From: Eubacterium sp.
GTDB taxonomy: Bacteria; Bacillota; Clostridia; Lachnospirales; Lachnospiraceae
Assembly (NCBI GenBank): GCA_017433615.1
Contig: JAFRGW010000133.1
Coordinates: 1 to 51,832, forward strand
DNA: 51,832 nt
Direction of reading: 5' to 3'
Position numbers and translations under genes: made by a program. Positions 2,319-51,662 of this stretch are shown here, one piece after another. Within the stretch, counting starts at the first letter, position 1. Every line of letters starts with the position of its first letter. The notes beneath the pieces are model-generated. The model was given only the letters and a program-made list of their open reading frames with translations. It did not search any database and was not told where the DNA came from.

Positions 2319-2325
2319 AACGAAA

Positions 2326-3102: not shown

Positions 3103-3133
3103 GATGAATAACCTCCTTAAAAATCTCTTTCGC

Positions 3134-3218
3134 AAATGTTACAAATTTGTTTCGAAATGTTACGGTCGCATTATATGAATAAAACATTCGTATGTCAAAT
3201 TTCCGCTTGGTATGTTAC
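3134..3218 (-). promoter_or_regulatory. consensus sigma-A promoter and direct repeats for the SH3-protein gene
   Basis: On the minus strand TTGACA (3198-3193), an exact 17 bp spacer and TATAAT (3175-3170) form a perfect consensus promoter. The predicted start is near 3163, giving a leader of about 60 nt. GTAACATTT occurs twice on the minus strand (3163-3155 and 3142-3134, 21 bp apart), and a related GTAACATA lies upstream (3218-3211). These repeats flank the promoter and look like operator sites of an envelope regulator. Confidence 0.75.
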
Positions 3219-4937: not shown

Positions 4938-5004
4938 AGACCAGCCGTCACTCTGAAAAAAACCGGACCGGAGTTGATCCGGGAATGGTTGGGGAACTTA
5001 AAAC

Positions 5005-6018: not shown

Positions 6019-6030
6019 GAAGAGCGAATC

Positions 6031-10384: not shown

Positions 10385-12613
10385 ATGAACAAAAAGAAGA
10401 AAATTCTGGCTGTAATGATCACAATTGCAGTAATATGCGGCGCCGTTGTGGGTGTATCTGCTGCGGTGCGGAGCACTACCTCGGGCGGAAAGGTTATGGT
10501 CGTACCGGCGGAAGAATTGAATTATGGATACGGTTACTGGGAAGGTGAGAGCATGGAGGGTTACGTTACTTCGGAGCGCACCCAGAACGTGAGACTCAAT
10601 ACTTCGCAGAGTGTGGCCGAGGTCAAAGTCGAGGAAGGTCAGGAGGTCAAGAAGGGTGATGTTCTGATGCTCTACGACATGAAACAGACCGAGGTGAACC
10701 TGGAGAAGGCGGAACTGAGCCTGGAGACGAAGAAACTCAGTCTGAAGAATGCAGAGGATTTACTGAAAAAGCTGAAGAATACCACGCCTTCTTCCGGCGA
10801 CGGAGATGATATGGACGGGCCGGATGAAGATGAGGATGATGATGACGCGGACGATACGGGGAAGACGGTCAAGAAGCCGAAAGCTGCCGATAAACTGACC
10901 GGCAGCAGCAAACCGTATTACGATGCGGAATCTGAGGCGGCTCCCGGCACAGAGGCAAATCCGTATCGGTTTCTTGTGAAAGCCGGTGCGACAGTCAATG
11001 CTGACTTTATCAATATGGTCAAAAAGCTGCAGGGAGAGCAGCCGGTATGCTATTTCGTTCTGGAACTGCGGGAAAATGACAGCTGGGAGGGAAAACTGAT
11101 CCGCTCCTGGATGCAGAACGCATCGGATGTACTGTCCCCGGATAAAGACTGGGTCGGCATCATCGATCCAGACAGTGAGAAGCCGATTATTCCGACCAGA
11201 ACCTTTGCTGAGATCGAAGAGCTGGAGAAGCAGATTAAGAAGAATAATGAAGATATAGAAAAATTAAAATCAGAAATAGAGGATTTGCAGCAGAAACTGA
11301 AACAGGCAGAGTCGAACGCTTCATCTACAGCAGATAATACGTCTGAAAACAATAACACCTCAGATCAAGAGAATACACAAACTTCGGATGACACGACTGA
11401 ACCGACCAGTAAGGAAACAGGAGAAGAAGGATCATCAGACGAGGGAAGCCAGGAAGAAATACAGGAAAAGCAAGCTGAAATCGATGCGCTCAGTGAAGAG
11501 AATCAGGCTCTGCAGGAACAGATTGAAACGCTGCAGGAGCAGAATGAGGTTCTGGAAGAGAATACGGTCAGTTCTTCATCAGTCGCTTTGCGCAGCGTAC
11601 TGCCTGCAGACCGGGCGGCTGCACAGCCAGTGCAGATGACAGCTGCCACAGCTGTTTATCAGAAGATCACACCGGTCACGGGAACGACTGCACTGGTGCA
11701 GGGAAGCGGCAGCGGGGCAGAAGCGGTGCTGACGGATTTTGAAGATCTGGAAGCCGACGAGGATCTGGATGATACAGATGATTCAGATGATTCGGACAGT
11801 GACAGCGATGAAGAAGACGATTCGATTTCATATTCACCCGATTCGCTGAGCGATTCAGAAGTGGATGGCAGCTACACCAGAGAGGAACTCGCCGAGGCAA
11901 TCAAAACGCAGGAGGAAAACATTACAGATCTGCGGCTGGATATCCGCGAAGCGGAGCTGAAGGTAAAGAAAGCCAAAAAAGCGCTGGAGGAAGGCTCTGT
12001 GAAGGCTGTTCTGGACGGCACGGTGACCAAAGTGGAAGATGTGGAAACCGCACTTGCAGACGGTTCGCCGTTTATCACAGTTTCAGGCAATTCCGGTATT
12101 GCCATCAGAGGCGGTCTGCCGGAGAAATTCCTCGGCACGATCTCAGAAGGCAATCAGATCACTGTGGCATCATGGACGAACGGCATGCAGTATACGGCAA
12201 CCATCTCGGAGATTTCTCCGTATCCGGACACCTCGGGTATGTTTGAGGGCGGCGGCGGATATAACAACTCCTACTATCCGTTTATCGCGATTATCGACGA
12301 TGAAGATGCAGAGATGGAAGACAATGACTGGGTGCAGATCTCGATTGATGCAAATACGCTGGCGCAGGATGACGGATTCTATCTGATGCGCGCATTCGTG
12401 CTGGAAGACGGCAATAAAGGGTATGTATACAAGCGCGGCGAGGATGGCCTGCTGCACAGACAGGACGTGAAACTCGGCAAGCTTTCCGGTGATTCCTATG
12501 AGATTCTCAGCGGCCTGACCGCGGACGACTGGGTTGCTTTCCCGTATGGAAAGACGGTCAAAGAGGGTGCACAGACCCGCGAGGGCACGATGGATGAACT
12601 GTATAATGGATGA
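10385..12613 (+). CDS. large second HlyD-like adaptor with inserted domain, coiled coils and acidic runs
   Basis: A 742-residue adaptor, about twice the usual MacA length. The membrane helix is at about 7-27; the first lipoyl-like half, SVAEVKVEEGQEVKKGDVLM, is near 78-97. The hairpin is interrupted by an Asp-rich run (10799-10860), an inserted globular segment (about 10915-11180, including PVCYFVLELRENDSWEGKLI), and two long coiled-coil stretches separated by a Ser/Thr/Glu-rich linker. A second Asp/Ser/Glu run follows (11741-11826), then the returning helix and the second lipoyl half VKAVLDGTVTKVEDVE. The C-terminal barrel is normal. It lies between the ATPase and permease genes, so the system has two non-identical adaptors. 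The inserted domain may contact wall or substrate. Confidence 0.8.
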   Translation: MNKKKKILAVMITIAVICGAVVGVSAAVRSTTSGGKVMVVPAEELNYGYGYWEGESMEGYVTSERTQNVRLNTSQSVAEVKVEEGQEVKKGDVLMLYDMKQTEVNLEKAELSLETKKLSLKNAEDLLKKLKNTTPSSGDGDDMDGPDEDEDDDDADDTGKTVKKPKAADKLTGSSKPYYDAESEAAPGTEANPYRFLVKAGATVNADFINMVKKLQGEQPVCYFVLELRENDSWEGKLIRSWMQNASDVLSPDKDWVGIIDPDSEKPIIPTRTFAEIEELEKQIKKNNEDIEKLKSEIEDLQQKLKQAESNASSTADNTSENNNTSDQENTQTSDDTTEPTSKETGEEGSSDEGSQEEIQEKQAEIDALSEENQALQEQIETLQEQNEVLEENTVSSSSVALRSVLPADRAAAQPVQMTAATAVYQKITPVTGTTALVQGSGSGAEAVLTDFEDLEADEDLDDTDDSDDSDSDSDEEDDSISYSPDSLSDSEVDGSYTREELAEAIKTQEENITDLRLDIREAELKVKKAKKALEEGSVKAVLDGTVTKVEDVETALADGSPFITVSGNSGIAIRGGLPEKFLGTISEGNQITVASWTNGMQYTATISEISPYPDTSGMFEGGGGYNNSYYPFIAIIDDEDAEMEDNDWVQISIDANTLAQDDGFYLMRAFVLEDGNKGYVYKRGEDGLLHRQDVKLGKLSGDSYEILSGLTADDWVAFPYGKTVKEGAQTREGTMDELYNG

Positions 12614-12658
12614 TCGGAAACGGTCTTTAATATATGTATTTGAGAGAGGACAGTGCAA

Positions 12659-13909
<1,251 letters not shown>

Positions 13910-13924
13910 TAAGAAATAATAAGA

Positions 13925-13968
13925 AAGGCGTTCGCAAAAGCATTTAAAAGCTTCTGCGGACGCCTTTT
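13925..13968 (+). terminator. terminator of the exporter operon
   Basis: AAGGCGTTCGCAAAAGC pairs with GCTTCTGCGGACGCCTT (two mismatches) around an eight-base loop and runs into TTTT. It sits right after the permease gene. Confidence 0.85.
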
Positions 13969-13970
13969 CT

Positions 13971-14017
13971 GAGTTGAGCCTCCTGCAGCTCGCGCACGAT
14001 CAGAGATCGCGATTGAA
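13971..14017 (+). repeat. REP-like element, copy A
   Basis: Starts GAGTTGAGCC, then GCAGCTCGCGCACGATC, AGA, GATCGCGATTGAA. The palindromic core is CGATC-AGA-GATCG (13997-14009). It directly follows the operon terminator. The same 47-bp arrangement recurs at 26608, and diverged forms at 29511, 34394 and 37311. Confidence 0.75.
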
Positions 14018-14045
14018 TTTAAAGAAACGGAACGATAAGCAGTGT

Positions 14046-14531
14046 TTATTCTGCCGGCGTGTCTTCCGCCGGTGCTTCCTCCGCCAGAGCCTCTTCAGCC
14101 GTCGCCTCCTTTACCGGCGCGTCTTCGTTTTCAAATATATCATCCTCTGCCGGAGCACCTTCAGCAGAATCCTCGTCTGCGACTGCGCCGATGTGGCATC
14201 CGCAGTGGGAACAGAACTCGGCCTCGTTCGGCACGTCTGCACCGCAGTCCGGGCACGGACGCACGTTGCGGAGCACCTGACGCTGTGCCTGATAGTCTTC
14301 CAGTGTCTGCTCGAGTCTTGCAATTTTTTCAAACATTTCAGTGTATTCTTCCGGGATATCGGTCTGCTGATTCTGATAGACCTGCTGGCCGAGCTGTGCG
14401 TAAATGCCGGTCAGTTCACGTTTGGCTGCTTCGATCTTTGCGGTCAGGGAAACGCGGTCACCGATGTTTTTGGTCTGCTTTGCGGCAACAGTGCCGAAAT
14501 CTGTAAGCATCTTGCTTAAATTCTCAAACAT
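14046..14531 (-). CDS. zinc-ribbon protein with coiled coil and acidic Ala/Glu-rich tail
   Basis: A 161-residue protein. Residues 1-85 are predicted helical and coiled-coil (MFENLSKMLTDFGTVAAKQT onward). A zinc ribbon follows, CPDCGADVP and CSHCGCHIG (two CxxC pairs, about 94-117). The last 45 residues are a low-complexity Glu/Ala/Pro tail of near-repeated EEAPAED units. Start 14531 is fixed by AGGAGG 7 nt upstream; an ATG 30 nt earlier lacks a site. Such small zinc-ribbon proteins are common in Lachnospiraceae and unassigned. It faces the CDF exporter gene divergently, 217 bp apart. Confidence 0.7.
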   Translation of the reverse strand: MFENLSKMLTDFGTVAAKQTKNIGDRVSLTAKIEAAKRELTGIYAQLGQQVYQNQQTDIPEEYTEMFEKIARLEQTLEDYQAQRQVLRNVRPCPDCGADVPNEAEFCSHCGCHIGAVADEDSAEGAPAEDDIFENEDAPVKEATAEEALAEEAPAEDTPAE

Positions 14532-14748
14532 TTCAAATCCTCCTTGTCTGATAGTTAGCATTCCATTCTTTTATCATTTGCAGTATAATAATGCGCGTAG
14601 TTTTGGGATGGAATTGTCCCATCACGCAATATCATAGCACATTTTCTGAATCAATACACAAAAATGAATATTGTTCAGAAAAATTTCACACTTCCATGCC
14701 GGTAATGTTGGAAGTGAAAGAAATAATACATTTGAAAGGAAGAGAACG

Positions 14749-15870
14749 ATGCAGAACGAACTGCAGAACAGAAATCAGGTTATCATCAGAACAAGTATCA
14801 TCGGAATTCTGGCCAACCTGCTGCTTGCCGGATTTAAGGCGGCGGTCGGTATGCTGTCCAATTCGATCTCGATCGTACTGGATGCCGTCAACAATCTGAG
14901 TGATGCGCTGTCCTCGGTCATCACGATTATCGGGACCAAGCTGGCGGGAAAGGCGCCGGATAAGAAGCATCCGCTCGGATACGGCAGAATTGAGTACTTA
15001 AGTGCCATGATTATTTCTGTAATCGTGCTGTATGCCGGCATTACGTCCCTGACAGAATCTATTAAGAAAATAATCCACCCGGAACAGGCGGATTATTCCA
15101 CACCGACGCTGATTATCGTGGCGGCTGCGGTTGCCGTGAAACTGATTCTGGGCAGATATGTGAAATCGGTCGGCGAGAAGGTAAATTCCGGTTCGCTGGT
15201 GGCATCCGGTGAAGACGCAAAGCTGGATTCGGTTATCTCGGCTGCGACACTTGTGGCAGCGATTATTTTCCTGGCGTCAGGTATTTCGCTGGAGGCCTAC
15301 CTCGGTGCCATTATTTCCGTCGTAATCATCAAATCCGGTATCGAAATGCTGATGGAGACACTGAGCAAGATTCTCGGTGAACGTGTGGACAGTGATCTGT
15401 CGCTGGAGATTAAGCGTGATATCTGCAGATTTGAGGGCGTGCAGGGCGCATATGACCTGATCCTGCATAATTATGGTCCGGACACACTGATCGGCTCTGT
15501 ACATGTGGAAATTCCGGATACCTGGGACGCACATCAGATCGATGAACTGACACGGAAAATCCAGAAAAAGATTTATTGCGATCACGGTGTCATCATGACG
15601 GCCGTCGGCATTTATTCCATGAATACAAAAGATGACTTTGCCATGCAGGTACGCTCGGATGTCACAGAAATCGTGATGTCACATGAGCATGTCCTGCAGA
15701 TGCACGGTTTTTACCTCGATGAAGAGGATAAGCGGATCACATTTGATCTGATTATCGATTTCGCGGCAGATGACCGCCGTGAAGTATATCAGCACATCGT
15801 AGACGAGATCCAGGAGAAATATCCGGAGTACAAGGTGCAGGTCGCGATGGATGTGGACGTCAGCGACTGA
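14749..15870 (+). CDS. cation diffusion facilitator exporter, probably manganese-type
   Basis: A 373-residue proton-coupled metal exporter with six helices and a C-terminal cytoplasmic domain (about 200-290), plus roughly 80 further residues resembling a second copy of that domain. The transport-site residues are N48xxxD52 in helix 2 (DAVNNLSDALSS) and D156xxxD160 in helix 5 (SGEDAKLDSV). An Asn/Asp plus Asp/Asp site is the arrangement seen in manganese-type CDFs such as MntE, whereas zinc exporters have His. The start at 14749 is chosen because GAAAGGA precedes it and the conserved helix begins soon after; upstream in-frame codons look non-coding. No metal regulator is adjacent. Confidence 0.85.
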   Translation: MQNELQNRNQVIIRTSIIGILANLLLAGFKAAVGMLSNSISIVLDAVNNLSDALSSVITIIGTKLAGKAPDKKHPLGYGRIEYLSAMIISVIVLYAGITSLTESIKKIIHPEQADYSTPTLIIVAAAVAVKLILGRYVKSVGEKVNSGSLVASGEDAKLDSVISAATLVAAIIFLASGISLEAYLGAIISVVIIKSGIEMLMETLSKILGERVDSDLSLEIKRDICRFEGVQGAYDLILHNYGPDTLIGSVHVEIPDTWDAHQIDELTRKIQKKIYCDHGVIMTAVGIYSMNTKDDFAMQVRSDVTEIVMSHEHVLQMHGFYLDEEDKRITFDLIIDFAADDRREVYQHIVDEIQEKYPEYKVQVAMDVDVSD

Positions 15871-39003: not shown

Positions 39004-39771
39004 TTAAGGGCAAACCAGTTTAATATTATTGTAGGAGATCGCATCCAGATACTTCTTCTCCGGCTCGCGGTTCGTCACGACAGCGTAGAGATCGTTGAAC
39101 TGGTAGAAGGAGAGGGTGGATGCCCTGTCAAATTTACTGTCGTCTGCACACAGGATAATCTTGTCGCTGCAGGCGACAACTTTTTTCTTGGTTTCTGCCT
39201 CGAAGTATGTCGTATGGGTCAGCCCTTTCTCGAGAGATACGCCTGTTGCCGCGATAAATGCCGCATCGGCGGAAATTGCAGAGAGCGGGTCCAGCGTCGA
39301 GATGCCGGAATAAGAGTTTGTCGCATGGTTGTAATATCCGCCCAGTGCGATGATGTTCAGCGTCGGGTATTTGGCTGCCTCATACATAACATTGAGTGAA
39401 TGCGTGATCAGCGTAACGTTGCTTTTCTCGGCAAGATAAGGAACCATGCAGGCAACCGTGGTGCCGGAATCCAGAAAGATGGTTTCTCCGTCAGATACCA
39501 TGTCGGCTGCCAGTCTTCCGATGATATTCTTGGCGGTGCTGTTCTTCACTGAACGAACCTGCAGCGGAACCGGCGCAGTATCTGTGTCATTTTCAGTAAT
39601 TGCGGAGACGCCGCCGTAGACTTTCCGGATGCGGCCGCGCTTGATCAGCTCATTGACATCACGGCGTACAGTGTTGACAGAGACCATGAAGTGGTTGGCA
39701 AGGTTCTCAAGCGGAACATTTCCTTCAGAAAGAATATATTCTTCCATTTCAATCAGACGGTCAATGCGCAT
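39004..39771 (-). CDS. DeoR/GlpR family sugar-responsive regulator
   Basis: A 255-residue repressor-type regulator. The N-terminal helix-turn-helix (about 17-50) has PLENLANHFMVSVNTVRRDVNELIKRGRIRKVYGG, the DeoR signature. The C-terminal sensor domain carries GETIFLDSGTTVACMVPYL and ITHSLNVMYEAAKYPTLNIIALGG, a fold that binds phosphorylated sugars or trioses. ATG 39771 follows AAAGGAG. It is divergently placed, about 490 bp from the type II GAPDH gene, so it very likely controls that gene and itself. Its own leader contains overlapping palindromes (CCGGTTACCGG and CCGGATATCCGG, 39802-39820). Confidence 0.88.
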   Translation of the reverse strand: MRIDRLIEMEEYILSEGNVPLENLANHFMVSVNTVRRDVNELIKRGRIRKVYGGVSAITENDTDTAPVPLQVRSVKNSTAKNIIGRLAADMVSDGETIFLDSGTTVACMVPYLAEKSNVTLITHSLNVMYEAAKYPTLNIIALGGYYNHATNSYSGISTLDPLSAISADAAFIAATGVSLEKGLTHTTYFEAETKKKVVACSDKIILCADDSKFDRASTLSFYQFNDLYAVVTNREPEKKYLDAISYNNIKLVCP

Positions 39772-40262
39772 GGGGAACTCCTTTCGTTCAGCTGGTGTTT
39801 TCCGGTTACCGGATATCCGGACAGGTATGGGAGCCTGCCTGATCAGCATTTTAGCTTGGAAATAATTGAGTTACTTTGGGTTAAATTGGAAAAGTTTTTT
39901 CGAACAATTCGCGGTATGGAGGGGAAAGGTTCCATACAAAAACCCTGTAAAAAATTGGTTAAATTGTTGTCAAATAATCTGGCCTGGCGGGTTTCAAAAG
40001 TTGTGCATACCCGAAAAACCGCGTAAAATAAGGAAAAATAATAATTTAACAAAGTTTCGGATTACAAAACGCCAATAAATATTCAATAGAAGTATACCAG
40101 AGATTGCCCAATACATGCAAGAGAAATGATAAAGTTTTTGGAAAAAATATTTTTTGAAATTGGGTATTGCAAAAACTTAACCAGTCTAATATAATGAGAT
40201 CAGTGTTAAGCCATTTCTATTTTGATAATTTAGTTTTTTCAAAAAAGAGAGGAGAAGGAATC
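39772..40262. promoter_or_regulatory. divergent control region of the DeoR gene and the GAPDH cluster
   Basis: AT-rich, 491 bp, no gene. GGTTAAATTG occurs identically at 39879-39888 and 39957-39966, and TTAACC, the inverse of its core, lies inside the GAPDH promoter spacer (40178-40183). The promoter is TTGCAA (40167-40172), 17 bp, TATAAT (40190-40195). The element AAGTATACCAGAGAT (40090-40104), with CATGCAA and AAATGAT following (40114-40130), is shared with the leader at 173. Repressor sites for the DeoR protein plus a second regulator are the simplest reading. Confidence 0.7.
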
Positions 40263-41309
40263 ATGGCAAAGGTGAAGGTAGGTGTAGCTGGTTACGGTAC
40301 CATCGGACAGCGTCTGGCAGACGGTGTTGCAAAGCAGGGAGATATGGAGCTGGTCGGTATTGCTGATATGGCCCCGACACTTGCAATCCGTGCGCTCTAT
40401 GAAAAAGGTATGCCGTATGACCTGTATCTTGTAAATGGTGCAGATACAGCAAAGTTTGACGAAATGGGTATCCCGTACAAGGGATCTTTCCAGGATCTGG
40501 TAGATCAGGTTGATGTTATGCTGGATTCCTCTCCGGCTGGTATTGGTCTGAAGAATAAACGTATCTATGAGGCAGCCGGTGTCAAGGCAATCTTCCAGGG
40601 CGGTGAGAAGAACGAAGTCGCTGATGTCTTCTTCCACGGCTATGCAAACTTCGAGAAGGGTCTTGATCAGAACTATCTGAAGCTGACAAGCTGCAATACC
40701 ACAGGTCTCATCCGTACGGTTGATGCACTTGACAGAGCTTATGGCATTGATAAGGTTGCCATCACAATCATCCGCCGTGTTGCTGACCCGGGCGATTACA
40801 ACCGTGGTCTTACCAACGCACTGCAGATTGAGAAGGCTCCGACACACCAGGCAGTTGACCTGATGACAATTATGCCGCACATCAATGCAACCGGTATCCT
40901 GGTTCACACACCGGTTACACACGGACATATCATCACAGTTCTCGCAACCGGCAAGAACGGCAAGATCACGAAGCAGATGGCTATGGATGCGTTCAAGGAT
41001 CATCCGCGTATCCGTATCCTGCGCATGGAAGACGGCTTCCTCGGAAACGCTTCCTACTTCAAATACGGCCGTGACCTCGGACATGAGCGCGGTGATATGT
41101 ATGAGATCGGTCTGTGGGAGAACAGCATCGTAGAGTCCGGCGATGACATCATGTATGCATTCGTCGTTCCGCAGGAAGCTGTTACCATTCCGGAGACAAT
41201 GGACTGCATCCGTGCAGCTATGCATATGCAGGAGACCCGTGAAGAGGGTACCTCCGAGACAAACAAATACCTCGGCATCGGCAAGTTCAAAGCTATGGGA
41301 CTGGGCTGA
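40263..41309 (+). CDS. type II (archaeal-type) glyceraldehyde-3-phosphate dehydrogenase
   Basis: A 348-residue phosphorylating GAPDH of the archaeal class, which converts glyceraldehyde 3-phosphate to 1,3-bisphosphoglycerate with NAD(P). The dinucleotide motif GYGTIGQRLADGV is at 10-22. The catalytic Cys is C144 in LKLTSCNTTGLIRTVDAL, the archaeal motif rather than the bacterial SCTTN. RRVADPGDYNRGLTNAL and PTHQAVDLMTIMPHINAT are also archaeal-type. The start at 40263 follows GAGGAGAAGGA. It stands apart from any bacterial-type gap and is followed by an archaeal-type PGK. Possible jobs are glycolysis with altered cofactor or oxidation of another aldose phosphate. Codon use is strongly biased. 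Confidence 0.9.
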   Translation: MAKVKVGVAGYGTIGQRLADGVAKQGDMELVGIADMAPTLAIRALYEKGMPYDLYLVNGADTAKFDEMGIPYKGSFQDLVDQVDVMLDSSPAGIGLKNKRIYEAAGVKAIFQGGEKNEVADVFFHGYANFEKGLDQNYLKLTSCNTTGLIRTVDALDRAYGIDKVAITIIRRVADPGDYNRGLTNALQIEKAPTHQAVDLMTIMPHINATGILVHTPVTHGHIITVLATGKNGKITKQMAMDAFKDHPRIRILRMEDGFLGNASYFKYGRDLGHERGDMYEIGLWENSIVESGDDIMYAFVVPQEAVTIPETMDCIRAAMHMQETREEGTSETNKYLGIGKFKAMGLG

Positions 41310-41373
41310 TCAGCATCTGACAAGGTAATAAATGCATAGGGCTGCAGCTGCAGTATATGTGCCTGAAACATGG

Positions 41374-41406
41374 AGAGGCTGTCGCGTATGCGCGGCAGCC
41401 TCTTTT
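41374..41406 (+). terminator. intergenic terminator between GAPDH and PGK genes
   Basis: AGAGGCTGTCGCG, TATG, CGCGGCAGCCTCT forms a 13-bp stem with one T/G wobble and runs into TTTC. It lies inside an otherwise operon-like series, so it probably lowers rather than blocks transcription into pgk. Confidence 0.8.
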
Positions 41407-41480
41407 CACATTAGAAGAGGAGCGGTGCTGCGCCGGCAGTGAATCTGCCGCGCGGGCTGCGAAAAGGAGAAGCAATTATT

Positions 41481-42737
41481 ATGAAATTTGGAATCCGTAC
41501 ACTTGACGAAGTAAATGTGAGCGGAAAAACCGTCCTCTGCAGAATTGACATCAATCAGCCGGTTGATATGGAGACCGGTACCCTGAAAAGCACGACACGT
41601 ATTCAGGCGTGCGTCCCGACAATCCGGGAACTTTCCGACAAAGGTGCGAAGGTTGTCCTGATGGCACACCAGGGAAGCGATATCGAGTACCAGAATTTCT
41701 ATACGACAGAGCCGCACAGCAAAGTTCTTTCCGAACTGCTCGGCAAAGAAGTACAGTTTATTCCGGATGTCTGCGGACCAGCGGCAATTGAGAAGATCAA
41801 ATCCCTGAAAGACGGTGAGATCCTTCTTCTGGACAATGTCCGCTTTATGTCTGAAGAGCAGACACTCTTTGAGAAAAAACTCCGTCTGACACACGAAGAA
41901 ATGGCAAAAACCATTGTTGTCCGCAAACTGGCACCGCTCGGCGATCTGTATCTGAATGATGCATTTGCCGCAGCACACAGAGACCAGCCGACACTTTCCG
42001 GCTTTGAGCAGGTTCTTCCGTCTATGATGGGACGTCTGTTCGAGAAGGAATACGTTGTCCTCTCCGAACTCATGGAAGCACCGGCGCGTCCGTGCACATT
42101 TGTTCTGGGCGGCGCAAAGATCGCCGATGCATTCCTGATGATGGAATCCGTTCTGTCAGCAGGCGCTGCAGATCATATCCTTGCAGGCGGCGTTGTTGCG
42201 AACATTCTCCTGATCGCAAAAGGAGAGCAGATCGGCCAGGGCAGCTATGATTTCATCGTGAAATCCAATTACGAAGAATTCTTTGAGAAGGCGAAAGTTC
42301 TCCTCGAGAAATATGCAGACAAGATTGTTCTGCCGGTTGATCTGGCATGGACAGAGGGAGATGTCCGCAAAGAGGCAAAGATCGGCGAGATTCCGGCAGA
42401 GATCGGATCTACCGATATCGGTGAAGAGACCGCAAAGATGTATCAGAAATACATCCTCGAATCGAAGACTGTCTTTGTCAATGGCCCGATGGGCATCTTT
42501 GAGGCAGAACTGACAGAACTCGGAACAAAGATGGTCTGGGATGCACTCGGTGACACAGAGGCATTCACGGTTGTCGGCGGCGGCGACAGCATCACCGCGA
42601 CCACAAAATACGGCAAAACAGACAAGATTTCCTATATCTGCACCGGCGGCGGCGCGCTGATTCGCTTCCTGACAGGTGAGGAACTTCCGGTTGTGAAGGC
42701 GCTGCGCCACGGATCACAGATCCCGATCAAAGACTGA
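41481..42737 (+). CDS. archaeal-type phosphoglycerate kinase
   Basis: A 418-residue PGK-family kinase making ATP from 1,3-bisphosphoglycerate. Conserved points are VLCRIDINQPVD (R21, D23, N25), VVLMAHQGSD where bacterial PGK has HLGRP-type residues, LLDNVRFMSEE, DLYLNDAFAAAHRDQPT, LGGAKIADAFLMM, NGPMGIFEAELTELGTK and the nucleotide loop VVGGGDSITATTKYG. The AHQG and shortened loops are archaeal features, matching the GAPDH upstream. AAGGAG precedes ATG 41481; a longer reading to 41439 has no site. LarA-like gene follows 15 bp later. Confidence 0.88.
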   Translation: MKFGIRTLDEVNVSGKTVLCRIDINQPVDMETGTLKSTTRIQACVPTIRELSDKGAKVVLMAHQGSDIEYQNFYTTEPHSKVLSELLGKEVQFIPDVCGPAAIEKIKSLKDGEILLLDNVRFMSEEQTLFEKKLRLTHEEMAKTIVVRKLAPLGDLYLNDAFAAAHRDQPTLSGFEQVLPSMMGRLFEKEYVVLSELMEAPARPCTFVLGGAKIADAFLMMESVLSAGAADHILAGGVVANILLIAKGEQIGQGSYDFIVKSNYEEFFEKAKVLLEKYADKIVLPVDLAWTEGDVRKEAKIGEIPAEIGSTDIGEETAKMYQKYILESKTVFVNGPMGIFEAELTELGTKMVWDALGDTEAFTVVGGGDSITATTKYGKTDKISYICTGGGALIRFLTGEELPVVKALRHGSQIPIKD

Positions 42738-42752
42738 GAAAGGAGCATCCAC

Positions 42753-44000
42753 ATGAAACTGGAACTTGGAATCGGTCAGGGAACCCAGACTGTGGAAATC
42801 CCGGACAATAACGTTTTAGATGTGCTGACCCCGAATCCTGTCGAATATGATCTGATGGGAGAGGACGAGGTCAGACGTGCACTCGCAGATCCGATCGGTT
42901 CTCCGCGTCTGAAAGATATTGTGAAACCAGGCGAAAAGATCGTGATGATCACAAGTGATATCACACGTCCGATGCCGACCTACACGGTCATGCCGGCACT
43001 GCTGGACGAACTGTATGCGGCAGGCTGCAAACCGGAGGATCTGACACTGATGTTCGCCCTCGGCAGCCACAGAAAGCATACCGAAGAAGAGATGATCCAT
43101 CTGGCCGGTGAGCGTGCGTTCAATGAGATCCGCTGCATCGACGGGGATGCAGAAGATGTTGTTCATGTGGGTGAAACTTCCCGCGGCACACCGGTGGACA
43201 TTGTCCGCGAGGTCGTAGAGGCTGACCGCAGAATCTGCCTCGGCAACATCGAGTACCATTATTTTGCAGGCTATTCAGGCGGTGCCAAGGCAATCATGCC
43301 GGGCGTCTCGACCTGGAATGCGATTCAGGCAAATCACAGCCGCATGGTTGAGTCCGGTGCACATGCCGGAAATATCGAAACAAATCCGGTCCGTCTGGAT
43401 ATCGAAGAAGCGTGTGCGATGGTCGGCGTTGATTTTATTCTCAATGTTGTGCTTAACGAGCATAAGAAGATTGTTAAGGCGGTTGCCGGTGATCTGACCA
43501 AAGCACACCGCGTCGGCTGTGAGTATCTGGACAGACTTTATACCAAGTACATTCCGAAACAGGCTGATATCGTCATTGTATCGCAGGGCGGTGCGCCGAA
43601 GGATCTGAATCTTTATCAGACCCAGAAGGCGCTGGACAATTCCAAGCACGCTGTCAGAGATGACGGAATTATCATCCTCGTAGGTTCCTGTAAAGAGGGA
43701 CTCGGCAACCCGGTATTTGATGCCTGGTTCCGCGAGGCGAGCTGCCCGCAGGATATCATAGACCGCCTCGCAGCGAAGTTTGCACTCGGCGGCCATAAGG
43801 CGGCAGCGGTTGCACAGGTCATGACCCGGGCAAAGATCTTTATGGTATCCGATATGGATCCGGATTTCGTACGCTCAATCTTCATGACCCCGTTCGCAAC
43901 CGTGCAGGAAGCCTATGACGCGGCCGCAGCAGAACTCGGCGCTGACGCTTCTGTAATCGTGATGCCATATGGCGGTTCGACGCTGCCGAAACTGAAGTAG
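42753..44000 (+). CDS. LarA-superfamily nickel-pincer racemase/epimerase
   Basis: A 415-residue protein of the lactate racemase superfamily. All the residues used by Lactobacillus LarA for substrate and nickel-pincer cofactor are visible at matching spacing. They are D69 and R72 (SDITRPMP), H106 (GSHRKHT), H169 and the cofactor Lys K179 (EYHYFAGYSGGAKAIMPG, 10 apart as H174/K184), H195 (NH, 26 from H169) and Q289/K292. The superfamily racemises or epimerises 2-hydroxy acids including lactate, malate, hydroxyglutarate and gluconate, so the substrate is open. The cofactor-building genes larB, larC and larE are not in the window. The start follows GAAAGGAG, 15 bp after PGK. Confidence 0.9.
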   Translation: MKLELGIGQGTQTVEIPDNNVLDVLTPNPVEYDLMGEDEVRRALADPIGSPRLKDIVKPGEKIVMITSDITRPMPTYTVMPALLDELYAAGCKPEDLTLMFALGSHRKHTEEEMIHLAGERAFNEIRCIDGDAEDVVHVGETSRGTPVDIVREVVEADRRICLGNIEYHYFAGYSGGAKAIMPGVSTWNAIQANHSRMVESGAHAGNIETNPVRLDIEEACAMVGVDFILNVVLNEHKKIVKAVAGDLTKAHRVGCEYLDRLYTKYIPKQADIVIVSQGGAPKDLNLYQTQKALDNSKHAVRDDGIIILVGSCKEGLGNPVFDAWFREASCPQDIIDRLAAKFALGGHKAAAVAQVMTRAKIFMVSDMDPDFVRSIFMTPFATVQEAYDAAAAELGADASVIVMPYGGSTLPKLK

Positions 44001-44494
44001 AAGGTGGCTTTAACTAAGTTATTTCTTTTTACGCCGTCCGACAAAGATGTATCTCGCCTGCTCCGCGAAAACACCATCGAACCACATGCTAAGATTCTGT
44101 AAGTGTGCCGCCGATTCGTCATAAGCGCAACTCACAGCCGGCACACTAACATCATCTAAGCATCCGTTTCTCCGGTGTTTTCCATGCAAGTCGCAGCGAG
44201 GATACATACTTTGCCGTAAGGCTTACACAGTGGCACACGCAGCTATTTTGCGCCTGCGGCCGCGCAACATGAAACAACACTGTATACAGCGGCCGTTCGC
44301 AGCGCCGCCAAAGAGTAAGCGCGAGGCGGTGTGGACAAATATAAGTTCAACGGCGAATTCTACCTGAGCCGGGGAACATATATTTGTCCACACCACCTCA
44401 AGCGAACTCATTAAAAGCCCCCTTTAAATCAATAGCAATTCGGAATTATCATATTCCGGAAATATAAACAAATTAATACTATAAGGAGAAAAAC
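44001..44494. other. highly structured 494 bp non-coding segment
   Basis: No supported gene. Three nested or adjacent inverted repeats are present. GAAAACACC (44067-44075) pairs with GGTGTTTTC (44174-44182). Inside it AGTGTGCCG (44102-44110) pairs with CGGCACACT (44139-44147). GGTGTGGACAAATATA (44328-44343) pairs exactly with TATATTTGTCCACACC (44379-44394), extended by GAGG/CCTC to 21 positions with one mismatch. A small CGGAAT-tatcat-ATTCCG dyad (44441-44458) lies near the malic enzyme start. No T run follows the large stems. Could be a non-coding RNA, a small mobile element relic or a leader. Confidence 0.75.
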
Positions 44495-45670
44495 ATGGAT
44501 TACGCAAAAGAATCACTCAGACTCCACGCAGAATGGAAAGGTAAAATCGAAGTCATCGCGACCGTTCCGGTCAAATCCAAAGATGACCTTTCCCTCGCCT
44601 ACACACCGGGTGTTGCACAGCCGTGTCTGGAGATCCAGAAGGATATCAACAAGAGTTATGATCTGACACGCCGCGCAAATATGTGCCTGGTTGTCACCGA
44701 CGGTTCTGCAGTTCTCGGCCTTGGCGATATCGGCCCGGAAGCCGGCATGCCGGTTATGGAAGGCAAATGCGTCCTGTTCAAATCCTTCGGCGGCGTTGAT
44801 GCATTTCCGCTGTGCGTCAAGACAAAAGACGTTGATGAATTCGTTAATACCGTTTATCTGATCAGCGGCAGCTTCGGCGGCATCAACCTCGAGGATATCG
44901 CTGCACCGCGCTGCTTCGAGATCGAGAAAAAGCTGAAAGAGAAATGTGATATTCCGATTTTCCACGATGACCAGCACGGAACCGCTGTTATTTCCCTCGC
45001 AGGTCTTACCAATGCACTGAAGATCGTCGACAAAAAGATCGATGAAATCAAAGTTGCCGTAAGTGGTGCCGGTTCTGCAGCAATTGCAATCTCCAAGCTG
45101 CTGATTTCTGCAGGCGTCAAGAACCTTACCATCTGTGACCGCCGCGGTGCGATCTACAAAGGCCGTAAAGAAGGCATGAACAGCATCAAGGAAGAGATGG
45201 CTGAGATCACCAATCCGGAGAACTGCCAGGGATCTCTTGCAGACGCAATGGTCGGCGCAGACGTATTTATCGGTGTCAGTGCACCGGGTCTGGTTACCCA
45301 GGATATGATCCGTTCCATGGCGAAGGATCCGATCGTATTTGCATGCGCAAACCCGACACCGGAGATTTTCCCGGATGAGGCAAAGGCAGCGGGTGCAAAA
45401 GTTATCGCAACAGGCCGCAGTGACTTCCCGAACCAGATCAACAACGTTCTGGCATTCCCGGGCATTTTCCGCGGTACATTCGATGTGCGCGCAAGTGATA
45501 TCAACGAAGAGATGAAGATCGCAGCAGCACATGCACCGGCAGATCTCGTATCTGATGAGGATCTGAGTGCGGATTATATCATTCCGGCAGCATTTGACGA
45601 GCGTGTATGCCCGGCTGTTTCCAAAGCAGTTGCAGAAGCGGCAAGAAAGAGCGGTGTAGCACGCCTGTGA
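44495..45670 (+). CDS. NAD(P)-dependent malic enzyme
   Basis: A 391-residue oxidoreductase that decarboxylates malate to pyruvate. The opening [21 protein letters not shown] contains the catalytic Tyr. [29 protein letters not shown] is the family core. The metal/catalytic block [20 protein letters not shown] and the dinucleotide motif [19 protein letters not shown] follow, then [20 protein letters not shown]. This is the short form without the phosphotransacetylase tail. It may yield pyruvate from malate produced or epimerised nearby. A structured leader precedes it; ATAAGGAG is the ribosome site. Confidence 0.93.
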
Positions 45671-45709
45671 TGAACACGAAGGTTTTCGTCAGTAAGGGCA
45701 ACATATTGA

Positions 45710-45826
45710 GAATTTCGCAGGAAATTCAGCAAAAAAGACTGCGAAAAACTGCAATCGGCAGTTGAATGTTTCTGAAAAACAGTATAAACTAACAGAAGAT
45801 GTGCAAATGGATATTTCTGACAGAAA
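45710..45826 (+). promoter_or_regulatory. transketolase promoter with flanking palindromes
   Basis: TTGAAT (45762-45767), 17 bp, TAAACT (45785-45790). Upstream is GAATTTC-GCAG-GAAATTC (45710-45727), a perfect palindrome. Downstream of the predicted start is TTTCTG-A-CAGAAA (45814-45826), also perfect and operator-like. Confidence 0.55.
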
Positions 45827-45883
45827 TTCCTTTTTGCGAGCAGGTACAAGTTGACTTTTATCAATGCAAGGAGAGATAAAGCT

Positions 45884-46744
45884 ATGAGCAAAGAGCAGAA
45901 GATGCAGGAACTGCGTGAGTTTGCTGCTGAAATCCGTGTAGAAACGCTGAAGATCATCGGCTCTCGCGGCTTTGGTCATGTCGGTGGATCCATGTCCCTG
46001 GCAGACGCTTATGCCGTTCTGTACGGTGCAGTTATGAAGTATGATCCGAAGAACCCGACATGGGAAGACAGAGACTGGTGTGTTCTTTCTAAGGGTCACG
46101 GCGGACCGGTTATGTATGCTACCCTCGGCCTTAAGGGCTTCTATCCGGTAGAAAATGCATATCAGCTGAACCAGCCGCATACCACATTCCCGTCTCATAC
46201 AGACCATCTGATGACTCCGGGTGTTGACCTGACAACAGGTTCTCTCGGCCAGGGCATCAGCGAGGCAGTCGGCGCAGCGCTCGGCAACAGAGCACAGGGC
46301 AGAGACAGCCATACATTCGTTTTCGTCGGCGACGGTGAGGCAGATGAAGGACAGGTTTGGGAGGCAGCTCAGTTTGCAGCTCATTATAAGATGAATAACC
46401 TGATTTGCCTGGTTGACAACAACGGACGTCAGCTTGACGGTGATGTAAATGTTGTCATGAGCCATGGTAAGGGCATCGGCGCGAAGTTCGACGCATTCGG
46501 ATGGCACGTAATCGACGTGGCAGACGGCAATGATGTTGAGCAGATCTATGATGCGATCCAGGAAGCTTACAAAGTAGAAGATAAGCCGATCGCACTGATC
46601 CTGAACACTGTCAAGGGTAAAGGCGCAACATTCGCTGAGTCCACAGGCGCACATTCCTCTCAGCCGTCCAAGGAAGAGTGGGATGAGGCAATCAAGGTAG
46701 CTGAAGAGAATCTCGCTGCAGTCCGCGCGCAGAAAGGAGCATGA
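45884..46744 (+). CDS. transketolase N-terminal subunit
   Basis: A 286-residue half of a two-subunit transketolase that binds thiamine diphosphate. The TPP motif is GDGEADEGQVWEAAQFAAHYKMNNLICLVDNNGRQLDG; GFGHVGGSMSLADAYAVLYG, LSKGHGGPVMYATLG and the HTDHLMTPGVDLTTGSLGQG block are characteristic. Start 45884 follows AAGGAGAG; an ATG-like start at 45851 is less likely. It ends just before the ATG of the second half. Transketolases move two-carbon units between pentose, tetrose and triose phosphates. Split forms are common in Clostridia. Confidence 0.94.
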   Translation: MSKEQKMQELREFAAEIRVETLKIIGSRGFGHVGGSMSLADAYAVLYGAVMKYDPKNPTWEDRDWCVLSKGHGGPVMYATLGLKGFYPVENAYQLNQPHTTFPSHTDHLMTPGVDLTTGSLGQGISEAVGAALGNRAQGRDSHTFVFVGDGEADEGQVWEAAQFAAHYKMNNLICLVDNNGRQLDGDVNVVMSHGKGIGAKFDAFGWHVIDVADGNDVEQIYDAIQEAYKVEDKPIALILNTVKGKGATFAESTGAHSSQPSKEEWDEAIKVAEENLAAVRAQKGA

Positions 46745-46746
46745 TC

Positions 46747-47712
46747 ATGAGTTTTGTTTTAGATGGAAAACATGAGAAAGATAAACGTGCATGCCGTGAT
46801 GGCTATATCGATGCAGTGCTTGAGCTGATGGATGCTGACAAGAAAGTTGTTCACATTGACTGCGACCTGAAGGGCTGCATCAATGTCGGAAGACTTGACA
46901 AGGCTCATCCGGATCAGGTTTACAATGCAGGTATCGCTGAGGCAAATGCAGTCGGCATCGCTTCCGGTATGGCAGCATCAGGCCTGACTCCGTTTATCCA
47001 CACATTCGGTATCTTTGCTTCCCGCCGTGTATTTGACCAGGCATTCCTGTCCGCAGGTTATTCCGAGTGGCCGGTACACATCGTAGGATCTGACCCGGGT
47101 GTCACAGCTGCATTCAACGGCGCTACACATATGCCGTTCGAGGACTGCGCACTGTATCTCTCTGTTCCGAATGCAACAGTCGTTGATCCGGCAGACTATG
47201 CACAGTGCTATGCGCTGACCAAGGAACTGGCTAAGGTTCCGACCATCACATACCAGCGTCTGATCCGTAAGGGCTTCGTAAAGGTTTACGAGGATGGCTC
47301 TGAGTTCGAACTCGGCAAGGGTGTTACACTCCGTGACGGCAGCGACGTTACCATCATCGCTTCCGGTATCATGGTAGACAAGGCTCTGCAGGCTGAAGAA
47401 GCACTCAAGGAAGAGGGCATCTCCGCACGTGTTATCGATATGCACACCTGGAAGCCGCTTGATGAAGAACTGATCATCAAAGCTGCAAAAGAGACCGGCG
47501 CAATCGTCACAGCTGAGAACCATCAGGTAAGCTGCGGCCTCGGCTCCGCAATTGCAAACGTTCTGGCACAGAACTGCCTCGTTCCGCAGGAGTTCGTAGG
47601 TATCCAGAACCGCTATGGTCAGGTTGGACCGCAGGATTTCCTTGAGAAAGAGTACAACCTTATGCCGGAAGACATCGTTGCAGCTGTCAAGAAGGTTATC
47701 GCAAGAAAGTGA
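46747..47712 (+). CDS. transketolase C-terminal subunit
   Basis: A 321-residue second half with the pyrimidine-binding and C-terminal domains. The catalytic Glu is in VYNAGIAEANAVGIASGMAASG. FIHTFGIFASRRVFDQAFLSAGY and HIVGSDPGVTAAFNGATHMPFEDCALY follow, then the C-domain SDVTIIASGIMVDKALQAEEAL. ATG 46747 is preferred, 7 nt after AAAGGAG, over ATG 46741, which overlaps the upstream stop. It must assemble with the N subunit to act. A terminator follows at 47864. Confidence 0.94.
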   Translation: MSFVLDGKHEKDKRACRDGYIDAVLELMDADKKVVHIDCDLKGCINVGRLDKAHPDQVYNAGIAEANAVGIASGMAASGLTPFIHTFGIFASRRVFDQAFLSAGYSEWPVHIVGSDPGVTAAFNGATHMPFEDCALYLSVPNATVVDPADYAQCYALTKELAKVPTITYQRLIRKGFVKVYEDGSEFELGKGVTLRDGSDVTIIASGIMVDKALQAEEALKEEGISARVIDMHTWKPLDEELIIKAAKETGAIVTAENHQVSCGLGSAIANVLAQNCLVPQEFVGIQNRYGQVGPQDFLEKEYNLMPEDIVAAVKKVIARK

Positions 47713-48025: not shown

Positions 48026-49297
48026 ATGGACAGGAGAAACGGCAGATGCCGTGGACAATTAAGAGGACTTACAGCACTGACACTGGCGGCCGGCATGCTT
48101 TTTGCAGCATGCGGCACTGAATCGGCAAATATTGAACAGGTGTCAGAAGCATCCGAAGTACCGGCAGCTGCAGTTTCGCAGACAGTGACAGTGACACCGG
48201 CGCCGACGCCTGTTCCGGCGGCAGCACCCGTAGAAACAGCGTCAGAAGAGACAGTATATGGCCTTGCGGAAATTCCGGCCGGCTATGGCATCTACAAGAA
48301 TGCCGCCGGCAATTACAGTTTTCTCTATGCAGATACATTTAACCCGGAAGAACTGGAAGATGCAGACGGCGCAATGTTCTATACAGACCAGGAACGCGTC
48401 AATTACGTCTGTGTCTTCACAGACAACAGCGGCGGGGAGAAGACGGAAGACTATCTGGACGAAATAGAGGCACATTTCCGGGAGACGGTGGAAGAGAACG
48501 GGTATGAGATCTGGGAAGAACCGGCAGTTACGGAGGCGCTTGTTCTGAATGGCCGTATCCTGCAGGGAATCCGTTATGGTTATTCGGTCAACGGTTCCCG
48601 CAGAGAATACACGGACTATATCGAGGAAGTGACGGACGGCAGAGTCGACAATATCGTCGTTTATGAGCAGCATGTGGTGCAGGGCAGTGATGATACTACC
48701 AATCTGGCCCTTCAGGATGCTGTTGCAAGTTTTGCACCGCAGGCGGGATTCTATGAAAATGTTCCGCTCGCAGAGCCGGAACCGGCAGCTGAAAATGCAC
48801 TGGCAGCCGAAAATGCAGCCCCGGAGTTCCAGATTGCGGAAGATGAACTGATCTATATCAGCGACCTGCAGAATTTCTCAGTAATCCTTCCGGAATATGT
48901 GATGGTGGTCGTTTCCGGGGAAACCGGAGGCATGACAGTATTCTGCAGCGGGAAGGGAGATTTTCCCACTGTCTTAATAAACCGGATCGACGATGTAGAT
49001 GCGAAAGATTATATAGAACAGATGCTCTCAGCCCTGTCTGAAGATGAAAACGTGACGACACTTACATCTGAAGTGGAGCGGTTCGGCGTCAACGGAAAGA
49101 ATGCATATCGTTTTGATTATTACGCGCCTGATGCCGAGGGCAATACAACCGGCAAAACACTTGCTGCCGTCAATACAGACGGCGGGATTGCGCTGTTTGA
49201 GGCTACTTACTACGATGTGGGACTGAATGATCTCAATACCGTAATGTCCCGGGCAACTGAGAGCTTCCGGCCGAGTGCGGCAGCGTACACGGGCTGA
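48026..49297 (+). CDS. predicted lipoprotein of unknown function
   Basis: A 423-residue exported protein. The basic start and hydrophobic segment end in the lipobox LFAAC with the lipid-accepting C29, so it should be anchored to the outer face of the membrane. A Thr/Pro/Ala-rich linker (about 40-70) is followed by two similar globular halves. The first opens IPAGYGIYKNAAGNYSFLYA and the second ISDLQNFSVILPEYVMVVV; each ends with a segment like DAVASFAPQ or ATESFRPSA, which suggests an internal duplication. No catalytic motif is recognised. AGGAGG precedes the ATG. It separates the transketolase genes from the IolD-type gene; a link to either is not shown. Confidence 0.7.
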   Translation: MDRRNGRCRGQLRGLTALTLAAGMLFAACGTESANIEQVSEASEVPAAAVSQTVTVTPAPTPVPAAAPVETASEETVYGLAEIPAGYGIYKNAAGNYSFLYADTFNPEELEDADGAMFYTDQERVNYVCVFTDNSGGEKTEDYLDEIEAHFRETVEENGYEIWEEPAVTEALVLNGRILQGIRYGYSVNGSRREYTDYIEEVTDGRVDNIVVYEQHVVQGSDDTTNLALQDAVASFAPQAGFYENVPLAEPEPAAENALAAENAAPEFQIAEDELIYISDLQNFSVILPEYVMVVVSGETGGMTVFCSGKGDFPTVLINRIDDVDAKDYIEQMLSALSEDENVTTLTSEVERFGVNGKNAYRFDYYAPDAEGNTTGKTLAAVNTDGGIALFEATYYDVGLNDLNTVMSRATESFRPSAAAYTG

Positions 49298-49730: not shown

Positions 49731-51662
49731 ATGGAAAAAACGACGAGAATGACAACAGCACAGGCTATTGTAAAATTTCTCGACAATCAGTACGTACTGA
49801 TGGATGGCGAGGAAACCAAGTTTGTTACAGGTTTCTTCACAATCTTCGGACATGGTATTGCTGTCGGTCTCGGCGAGGCGCTTGATTCTGATCCGGGCGA
49901 TCTCAGAGTTATGCAGGGACGTAACGAGCAGGGTATGTGCCACGCAGCTATCGCTTACGCTAAGCAGAGCGACCGCAAGAAAATCATCGCGTGCTCATCT
50001 TCAGTAGGACCTGGCGCTGCAAATATGGTTACAGCATGCGCAACAGCTACTGTTAACAATATTCCGCTGCTGGTATTCCCGGCAGATACTTATGCAACCA
50101 GACAGCCTGATCCGGTTCTGCAGCAGCTTGAGCAGAGCAACAGCCTGGCTACAACAACCAACGATGCTTTCAAGCCGGTTGTTAAGTACTGGGATCGCAT
50201 TGACCGTCCGGAAAAACTGACAACAGCTCTGATCAACGCTATGCGCGTTCTGACAGACCCGGCAGAGACCGGCGCTGTCTGCATCGCACTTCCGCAGGAC
50301 GTTGAGGGTGAGTCCTGGGATTTCCCGGATTACTTCTTCAAGAAACGCGTACACCGCATTACAAGACCATGTGCAGTCGCAGAAGAGATCGATGATATCG
50401 CAGCTGTTATTGCTGAGGCTAAGAAGCCGCTCGTAATCGTAGGCGGCGGCGTCCGCTACTCACTGGCAGGCGAAGAAGTTGAGAAGTTCTGTGCAGAGTT
50501 CAATATCCCGTTCGGCGAGAGCCAGGGAGGAAAGAGCGCATGCAAGTCCAGTGATCCGTACTGCCTGGGCGGTATCGGTGTTACAGGTACTTCCGCATCC
50601 AACAAGATCGCGAAAGACGCTGATGTTGTTATCGCAATCGGAACAAGACTTTCCGACTTCACAACCAGCTCCAAGTGGCTGTTCCAGAATCCGGATGTCA
50701 AGTTCGTTACCATCAACAACAACCGCTATCATGCATATAAGTATGATGCAGTCAAGGCTGTCGGCGATGCAAAGGTTACTGTTGCAGCCCTCGCTGAAGT
50801 ACTTCGTGCAAAAGGCTACAAGTCCGCATACACAACCGAGATCAAGGATGTCAAGGACGAGTGGGATGCAGAGCTTGAGCGTCTCGGCGGTATTGTCTGC
50901 GACGGACCGGACTTCGAGCCGATGATCAAGGCAAGAGATCCGAGAACGGTTCCGGAGTTCGTAAAGATGTACGGCACATCCCTGACCCAGACTGCAGCAC
51001 TCGCAACACTGCGTGCATGCATGGGCGAAGATGACATCATCATCACAGCAGGCGGATCTCTTCCGAGCTGCAACCAGCGTGTATGGAAGACCGACAAGCG
51101 CGGCGGATATCATGCAGAGTACGGCTATTCCTGCATGGGCTATGAGATCGGTGCATCTCTCGGCGTTAAGTGGGCAGACCCGGATGTAGAAGAATACACA
51201 GTCATCGGTGACTCCTCCTTCCAGATGCTCAACTCTGAGCTTGGAACCATCATGCAGGAGCGCGTTAAGACAAATATCCTTGTTTTCGATAACTGCGGAT
51301 TCGGCTGCATCAACAACCTGGAAATGACACATGGTATCGGCAGCATTGCTACTGAGTTCCGTTACACAGACGGCAAGAAGCCGACCGGCGATCTTGTTCC
51401 GACCAACTACGCACTCATCGGTCAGGCATTCGGCATGAAGACCTACACCTGCAAGAGCGTAGAAGAACTGCGTGACGCAATCCTTGATTCCAGAAAACAG
51501 GAAGTTGCATGCCTGTTCGATCTGAAGATCGTTCCGAAGACCATGACAGACGGCTATGGTTCCTGGTGGAATGTAGGCCTTGCTGACACATCCAAGAACC
51601 CGGATGTCAACAAGTGCTTCGAGGAACTCAAAGAGCACAGAGACGCTGCAAGAGCATATTGA
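49731..51662 (+). CDS. iolD: IolD-type TPP enzyme, 3D-(3,5/4)-trihydroxycyclohexane-1,2-dione acylhydrolase
   Basis: A 643-residue thiamine-diphosphate enzyme. In myo-inositol breakdown IolD opens the trihydroxycyclohexanedione ring to 5-deoxyglucuronate. The N-terminal RMTTAQAIVKFLDNQYV, the Glu-containing RNEQGMCHAAIAYAKQ, the middle domain and the TPP site VIGDSSFQMLNSELGTIMQERVKTNILVFDNCGFGCINN with GIGSIATEFRYTDG follow the IolD pattern, and the length is usual. The start follows AAAGGAG. No other iol gene (iolB, C, E, G) lies upstream; they could follow beyond the window. A related specificity cannot be excluded. The promoter is heavily operator-decorated. Confidence 0.88.
   Translation: MEKTTRMTTAQAIVKFLDNQYVLMDGEETKFVTGFFTIFGHGIAVGLGEALDSDPGDLRVMQGRNEQGMCHAAIAYAKQSDRKKIIACSSSVGPGAANMVTACATATVNNIPLLVFPADTYATRQPDPVLQQLEQSNSLATTTNDAFKPVVKYWDRIDRPEKLTTALINAMRVLTDPAETGAVCIALPQDVEGESWDFPDYFFKKRVHRITRPCAVAEEIDDIAAVIAEAKKPLVIVGGGVRYSLAGEEVEKFCAEFNIPFGESQGGKSACKSSDPYCLGGIGVTGTSASNKIAKDADVVIAIGTRLSDFTTSSKWLFQNPDVKFVTINNNRYHAYKYDAVKAVGDAKVTVAALAEVLRAKGYKSAYTTEIKDVKDEWDAELERLGGIVCDGPDFEPMIKARDPRTVPEFVKMYGTSLTQTAALATLRACMGEDDIIITAGGSLPSCNQRVWKTDKRGGYHAEYGYSCMGYEIGASLGVKWADPDVEEYTVIGDSSFQMLNSELGTIMQERVKTNILVFDNCGFGCINNLEMTHGIGSIATEFRYTDGKKPTGDLVPTNYALIGQAFGMKTYTCKSVEELRDAILDSRKQEVACLFDLKIVPKTMTDGYGSWWNVGLADTSKNPDVNKCFEELKEHRDAARAY

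Follow-up and report, generated by a model that had tools for sequence, protein, structure and literature searches.

The window analysed here, a stretch of 51,832 bases that makes up the entire contig C105 of a Eubacterium sp. genome (G000), carries a gene cluster for homologues of type II, archaeal-class glyceraldehyde-3-phosphate dehydrogenase (GAPDH-II) and archaeal-class phosphoglycerate kinase (PGK), a nickel-pincer racemase of the LarA family, a malic enzyme and the two subunits of a split transketolase (TK-N and TK-C), followed by the inositol catabolism gene iolD (Table 1). In the known inositol pathway, 2-deoxy-5-keto-D-gluconate (DKG) is the substrate of the kinase IolC. Four kinds of observation, namely gene identities, co-occurrence of the genes across genomes, the absence of IolC over its model cut-off and changes in substrate-contact residues, lead us to consider it likely that the cluster represents a kinase-free alternative lower branch of myo-inositol catabolism.

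The substrates and reactions that we infer for this branch, including the fate of the ketol unit, would be the following. IolG, IolE, IolD and an IolB-like isomerase would lead to DKG which, regarded as a ketose, has the configuration of xylulose 5-phosphate at both carbinol carbons, with a carboxylate replacing the phosphate. The split transketolase would shift the C5-C6 ketol unit of DKG to an aldose phosphate, for example converting glyceraldehyde 3-phosphate (GAP) to xylulose 5-phosphate, and this cleavage would release D-malate semialdehyde ((R)-3-hydroxy-4-oxobutanoate). The GAPDH-II homologue may then serve as a phosphorylating D-malate-semialdehyde dehydrogenase that forms D-malyl phosphate with NAD and phosphate, and the PGK homologue as a D-malyl-phosphate kinase that would yield D-malate and ATP from D-malyl phosphate and ADP. 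The LarAH6 racemase would convert D-malate to L-malate, from which malic enzyme would produce pyruvate, CO2 and NAD(P)H. Fischer bookkeeping gives D-malate semialdehyde the configuration of D-GAP, and D-malate as the product of its oxidation; malic enzyme normally takes L-malate, and a malate racemase would therefore be needed before it. The proposal is a single hypothesis that employs every enzyme gene of the cluster. With fair confidence, it may be extended further: the transketolase, GAPDH and PGK homologues would have been re-tuned to carboxylate analogues of xylulose 5-phosphate, GAP and 1,3-bisphosphoglycerate, D-malyl phosphate would be a new ATP-yielding acyl phosphate, malate racemase would have a physiological role, and the whole would constitute a widespread anaerobic inositol route present in at least three phyla.

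Gene company of the cluster and proposed replacement of IolC

A preliminary description of the cluster, made from the letters of the window, took the gene set to be complete at position 47712 and overlooked iolD, which lies 2 kb downstream. The contig stops shortly after iolD, so that the continuation beyond this gene is not visible in the window genome. In a genome of the same genus (G003), the same gene order is followed by an IolB-like gene, iolE and iolG, and in a genome of another genus (G014) the order is GAPDH-II, PGK, LarA, malic enzyme, iolD, IolB-like gene, iolE and iolG; IolE and IolG exceed their model cut-offs at both loci. Because iol genes adjoin the cluster, inositol through DKG is its likely input. 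The earlier suggestion of a dedicated catabolic route thus stands in so far as the cluster is separate from glycolysis and the order of its genes is conserved in relatives (PGK-LarA-malic enzyme in five genomes of the genus and in G014), with inositol via DKG in place of a sugar yielding triose or tetrose phosphates as its probable starting point.

The distribution of the cluster was analysed by scanning one genome per species, for 84,980 species, with a GAPDH-II alignment. This gave 239 related stretches, the best 80 of which are the loci analysed here. They belong to Lachnospiraceae and other Clostridia (Bacillota), Spirochaetota and Chloroflexota, and often stem from gut or rumen samples. 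Gene company was counted by tblastn of reference proteins, which detected PGK at 75 of these loci, LarA at 62, TK-C at 55, TK-N at 52 (one or the other transketolase subunit at 56), malic enzyme at 40 and the DeoR-family regulator at 22. PGK lies within 600 bp of GAPDH-II on the same strand at 73 loci. Inositol genes are also frequent (IolE at 46, IolD and IolG at 43 each, IolB at 38), with at least one of these four at 53 loci. When closer relatives alone are counted, LarA is retained at 58 loci (at least 50% identity), TK-N or TK-C at 53 (at least 40%), IolG at 35 (at least 45%) and DeoR at 6 (at least 50%). All six enzymes of the cluster occur together at 31 loci, 23 of which also have IolD. 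Many contigs are short, and missing genes are therefore partly a matter of cut ends. Within the order of the window genome, GAPDH-II is rare: among 295 genomes drawn, it exceeded the cut-off in the window's own genome alone, in a draw that left out four other members of the genus and G014, all of which have GAPDH-II.

IolC does not exceed its cut-off in any of six genomes, five of the genus and G014. Fifty genomes were then considered that had been picked from the 80 loci; IolD is over cut-off in 43 of them, a count biased upward since 40 of the 50 have an iol gene in the locus, and IolC is over cut-off in 3. The control consisted of 30 genomes of the order draw that have IolD and in which GAPDH-II stays below its cut-off; 25 of them have IolC (3/43 versus 25/30, Fisher p 1.5e-11, kinship not corrected for). 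Two of the three exceptions, G339 and G366, have two IolD copies each, and in G366 IolC adjoins the IolD copy on contig C5. Isolates with GAPDH-II and IolD in which IolC stays below its cut-off include Lachnospiraceae FE2018, Oscillibacter valericigenes An411 and Pelolinea submarina. Searched against the 80 loci, IolC references (from 3 of 9 loci) detected a single weak relative, at locus L116, with 26% identity.

Residues of the cluster enzymes

Residues were counted in sequences of at least 85% of the reference length, plus that of the window. This length filter was passed by PGK from 67 of 75 loci, LarA from 59 of 62 and TK-C from 53 of 55, and the resulting sets include three distant LarA and two distant TK-C relatives. 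In the cluster transketolase, thiamine diphosphate (ThDP) and catalytic motifs are present, with the catalytic Glu in all 54 sequences. The nearest solved split transketolase to TK-C of the window is 6yaj. Residues that bind substrate in transketolase are, according to PMC4601599, Ser384, Arg357, His461, Asp469 and Arg520. Most of these positions are altered in TK-C of the cluster: His461 is replaced by Asp in 52 of 54 sequences, Asp469 by Asn in 53, Ser384 by Cys in 43 and Arg357 by Lys in 48, with Arg520 kept in 52; the window TK-C itself keeps both Arg357 and Arg520. In 6yaj, an ordinary split transketolase, positions 461, 469, 384, 357 and 520 hold His, Asp, Ser, Arg and Arg.

The closest solved structure to PGK of the window is 2cun, an archaeal enzyme beside which the 68 cluster PGKs form one clade. 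Human PGK binds bisphosphoglycerate (BPG) through seven residues, listed in PMC3900376 as Asp23, Asn25, Arg38, His62, Arg65, Arg122 and Arg170. All 68 cluster PGKs keep six of the seven. The position of Arg65, a residue which we take to touch the 3-phosphate, is occupied by Ser in 59, the window protein among them, and by Asp in 9 of the 68; ten ordinary PGKs all have Lys here, and 2cun and 1vpe a basic residue. An independent origin of the Asp-type enzymes was considered and is not supported, as Ser- and Asp-types share one clade. For GAPDH-II, with 2czc and 1cf2 as the structures closest to the window protein, 97% or more of the 81 cluster sequences have the catalytic Cys and His, as do three archaeal ones. 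At 39 positions that are constant in three archaeal GAPDH structures, at least 90% of the 81 sequences share a different residue, and positions of the archaeal SHHG motif are among them. GAP and 3-phosphoglycerate are probably not the substrates of the GAPDH and PGK homologues of the cluster.

The racemase of the window has malate racemase Mar2 (6d6z) as its best solved match (E 1.4e-119). A GHK motif marks the malate groups of LarA in a survey of this family (PMC7583248), which also found LarAH6 to be a malate racemase, took malic enzyme as a clue from gene context and leaves the in vivo role open. Of 60 cluster LarA sequences, 57 have GHK, that of the window included, and the other 3 have YHK; all 60 keep the lysine of the AGYSGGxK stretch. 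The cluster racemase most likely acts on malate. The genes larB and larC for its cofactor, whose presence the preliminary description had proposed to check, are found in the window genome itself (G000:C170), and both are present in all six genomes of the genus and G014.

Alternative readings

A number of observations weigh against the proposed inositol branch. At 8 of the 80 loci, some of them on short contigs, GAPDH-II occurs without LarA, TK-N or iol genes, and no transketolase was found in the fetched 40 kb of the 49-kb contig of G014. The LarA matches include 4 of 62 with 36-38% identity, and the cluster enzyme has Phe at the position of Lys173 in Mar2. Beyond the six genomes mentioned, the cofactor genes are less regular, with LarC over cut-off in 32 and LarB in 29 of the 50 GAPDH-II genomes only, and in the complete genome of Pelolinea submarina neither exceeds its cut-off, so that LarA may lack its cofactor there. 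The IolB-like proteins of G003 and G014 match IolB as their only family, at 71.6 and 94.5 bits against a cut-off of 205. Five of the 30 control genomes (G053, G073, G149, G275 and G287) have IolD with neither IolC nor GAPDH-II over cut-off; other variants may thus exist, and some of the five may be incomplete. Finally, a methylmalonate-semialdehyde dehydrogenase (MMSDH) of the IolA family exceeds its cut-off in one of the six genomes, which is that of the window (contig C168). A contaminant origin of this contig was considered and not shown, as its GC content is 0.499 compared to 0.519 in the window and its tetranucleotide correlation (r 0.953) falls inside the 0.948-0.975 range of four other sampled contigs of the genome; the C168 MMSDH is therefore retained among the unfavourable evidence.

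The cluster could be a second, inositol-linked lower glycolysis, in which transketolase and the pentose phosphate pathway would provide GAP for conversion to 3-phosphoglycerate by GAPDH-II and PGK, with LarA and malic enzyme handling malate separately. This would agree with the match of both enzymes to their family models, with catalytic residues kept, and with the circularly permuted cofactor-independent phosphoglycerate mutase encoded 5′ of GAPDH-II at 11 of 80 loci, a neighbour that hints at 3-phosphoglycerate and fits a glycolytic role better than it fits the inositol branch. However, the same genome encodes an ordinary, bacterial-type gap (G000:C90) and pgk (G000:C81), as the preliminary description had supposed, and the idea that the cluster is simply the glycolysis of this organism was rejected for this reason. 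Moreover, a BPG-binding residue is replaced in each of the 68 PGKs, and in a glycolytic scheme DKG would have no fate where IolC is absent and D-malate would have no source. A second glycolysis hence appears unlikely to us. Alternatively, the module might degrade another compound that also gives a 2-hydroxy acid, and lie beside iol genes because this compound co-occurs with inositol. Dorea sp. D27 and Lachnospiraceae CE91-St61 carry the full module in genomes where IolD is not over cut-off, which also weighs against the inositol branch; the Dorea locus encodes, besides a DapA-like protein, a ribose-type ABC transporter (as read from open reading frames, ORFs) and proteins that resemble IolM and IolO and score below cut-off. 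Such a scheme leaves aside the replacement of IolC in IolD genomes; in addition, for ten picked loci lacking a nearby iol gene, IolD is encoded elsewhere in 6 of 10 genomes versus 30 of 294 (p 0.0003). We regard this explanation as quite unlikely.

Still another scheme would have DKG converted by an unrecognised kinase and an aldolase to malonate semialdehyde, with the GAPDH and PGK homologues replacing IolA, and would account for the finding that IolA is not over cut-off in five of the six genomes. It would leave transketolase, racemase and malic enzyme unused, and in 47 of 50 genomes no IolC exceeds its cut-off; we regard this scheme as highly improbable. The kinase-free inositol branch is the reading that we consider probable.

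Some of the loci mentioned have further features. The permuted mutase, with its halves swapped, is exemplified by L148:7301-8905, which matches TIGR01307 in two stretches (466.8 bits); similar ORFs at L163, L164, L165, L166, L171, L173, L174, L177, L178 and L189 were assigned to the same group on the basis of blastp alone. The Dorea locus (L176), with its six-enzyme module, also encodes a 2-hydroxyacid dehydrogenase. Locus L105 (G000:C168:38001-57000) contains two further split transketolases, at 1146-6021 and 12478-15833. One has a putative kinase of the PfkB type, a putative class II aldolase and a putative alcohol dehydrogenase as neighbours (read from ORFs), and the other, which carries the same Asp/Asn changes as the cluster enzyme, adjoins the MMSDH-family dehydrogenase of this contig. 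These transketolases possibly belong to another transketolase-based acid pathway; the MMSDH and PfkB references from C168 match one of the 80 loci each.

Layout of the window and relation to known systems

All genes named in the preliminary description were recovered at the positions given there, in agreement with family models (Table 1), and the gap between PGK and LarA is 15 bp, as had been noted.

Table 1. Features of the inositol-associated cluster in the window.
Feature	Position	Strand	Remarks
DeoR-family regulator	39004..39771	-	Divergent from cluster; Pfam DeoRC and HTH_DeoR; start refined against relatives
Promoter-like site TTGCAA-17-TATAAT, upstream of GAPDH-II	40167..40195	+	Weak
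Type II (archaeal-class) GAPDH homologue	40263..41309	+	NF003251 391 bits, cut-off 185; start (ATG) refined against relatives
Archaeal-class PGK homologue	41481..42737	+	Pfam PGK 384 bits, cut-off 27; start (ATG) refined against relatives
Nickel-pincer racemase LarA, LarAH6 group (most likely malate)	42753..44000	+	NF052593 583.8 bits, cut-off 500
Malic enzyme	44495..45670	+	Pfam malic and Malic_M
Split transketolase N (ThDP-binding) subunit, TK-N	45884..46744	+	Pfam Transketolase_N 195 bits; conserved His and GDGE motifs; start (ATG) refined against relatives
Split transketolase C subunit, TK-C	46741..47712	+	Pfam Transket_pyr and Transketolase_C; changed substrate-contact residues
iolD, trihydroxycyclohexane-1,2-dione hydrolase (inositol catabolism)	49731..51662	+	TIGR04377 868 bits, cut-off 715

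A DeoR-like gene is also located 5′ of GAPDH-II in G001, G003, G004 and G014. Promoter-like sites are not enriched in the region before GAPDH-II, where 5 were found versus 7.6 expected from shuffled sequence. The spacer between larA and the malic enzyme gene (44004-44470) is approximately 470 bases long in the window, with two imperfect palindromes (44067-44182 and 44310-44412), and measures about 30 to 115 bases in G001, G002, G003, G004 and G014; 139 bases of it recur in G000:C35 at 73%. Between TK-C and iolD, positions 48026-49297 encode a protein of 423 residues. This protein, whose start resembles that of a lipoprotein and which matches neither Pfam nor NCBIfam at E 0.001, shares 66% identity over 347 residues with its counterpart in G003, as compared to more than 99% for the flanking transketolase and IolD proteins.

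The preliminary description knew of no pathway with exactly this gene set, and none was found in the open-licence literature searched, the available text of which contained nothing joining transketolase with DKG or inositol breakdown; PMC5808187 and PMC12130570 are, in the portions accessible, unrelated to such a route. Plant diets commonly contain inositol and phytate. Judged by their genes alone, bacteria of the kind described here look as if they degraded inositol incompletely and possessed glycolysis in duplicate. If the proposed route is true, many genomes would contain genes misnamed as gapdh and pgk, substrate-level phosphorylation would have a new site, and malate racemase would gain a biological role.

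Parts of the system have counterparts elsewhere. Mar2 and the LarAH6 group share with the cluster racemase the family, the GHK motif and the malic enzyme neighbour, and inositol, phosphoglycerate and transketolase go unmentioned in the main text of PMC7583248. The inositol pathway of gut Anaerostipes uses iolBCDEGJ (PMC8355322). In the canonical pathway, which is also that of B. subtilis, IolG, IolE, IolD and IolB lead to DKG as proposed here, and IolC kinase and IolJ aldolase then yield dihydroxyacetone phosphate and malonate semialdehyde. The present system lacks IolC, and the later steps would instead be carried out by transketolase, GAPDH-II, PGK, LarA and malic enzyme. The inositol pathway of Thermotoga (IolM, IolN and IolO) is likewise an alternative route without IolC, and differs from the one proposed here in its enzymes and in keeping all six carbons. 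Sulfoquinovose degradation by the sulfo-transketolase pathway likewise involves a split transketolase, which cleaves an acidic ketose that bears no phosphate and hands on its ketol unit. To our knowledge, this pathway involves neither a GAPDH-PGK pair nor a malate racemase. It is the nearest idea known to us, with a sulfonate there in the place of the carboxylate proposed here.

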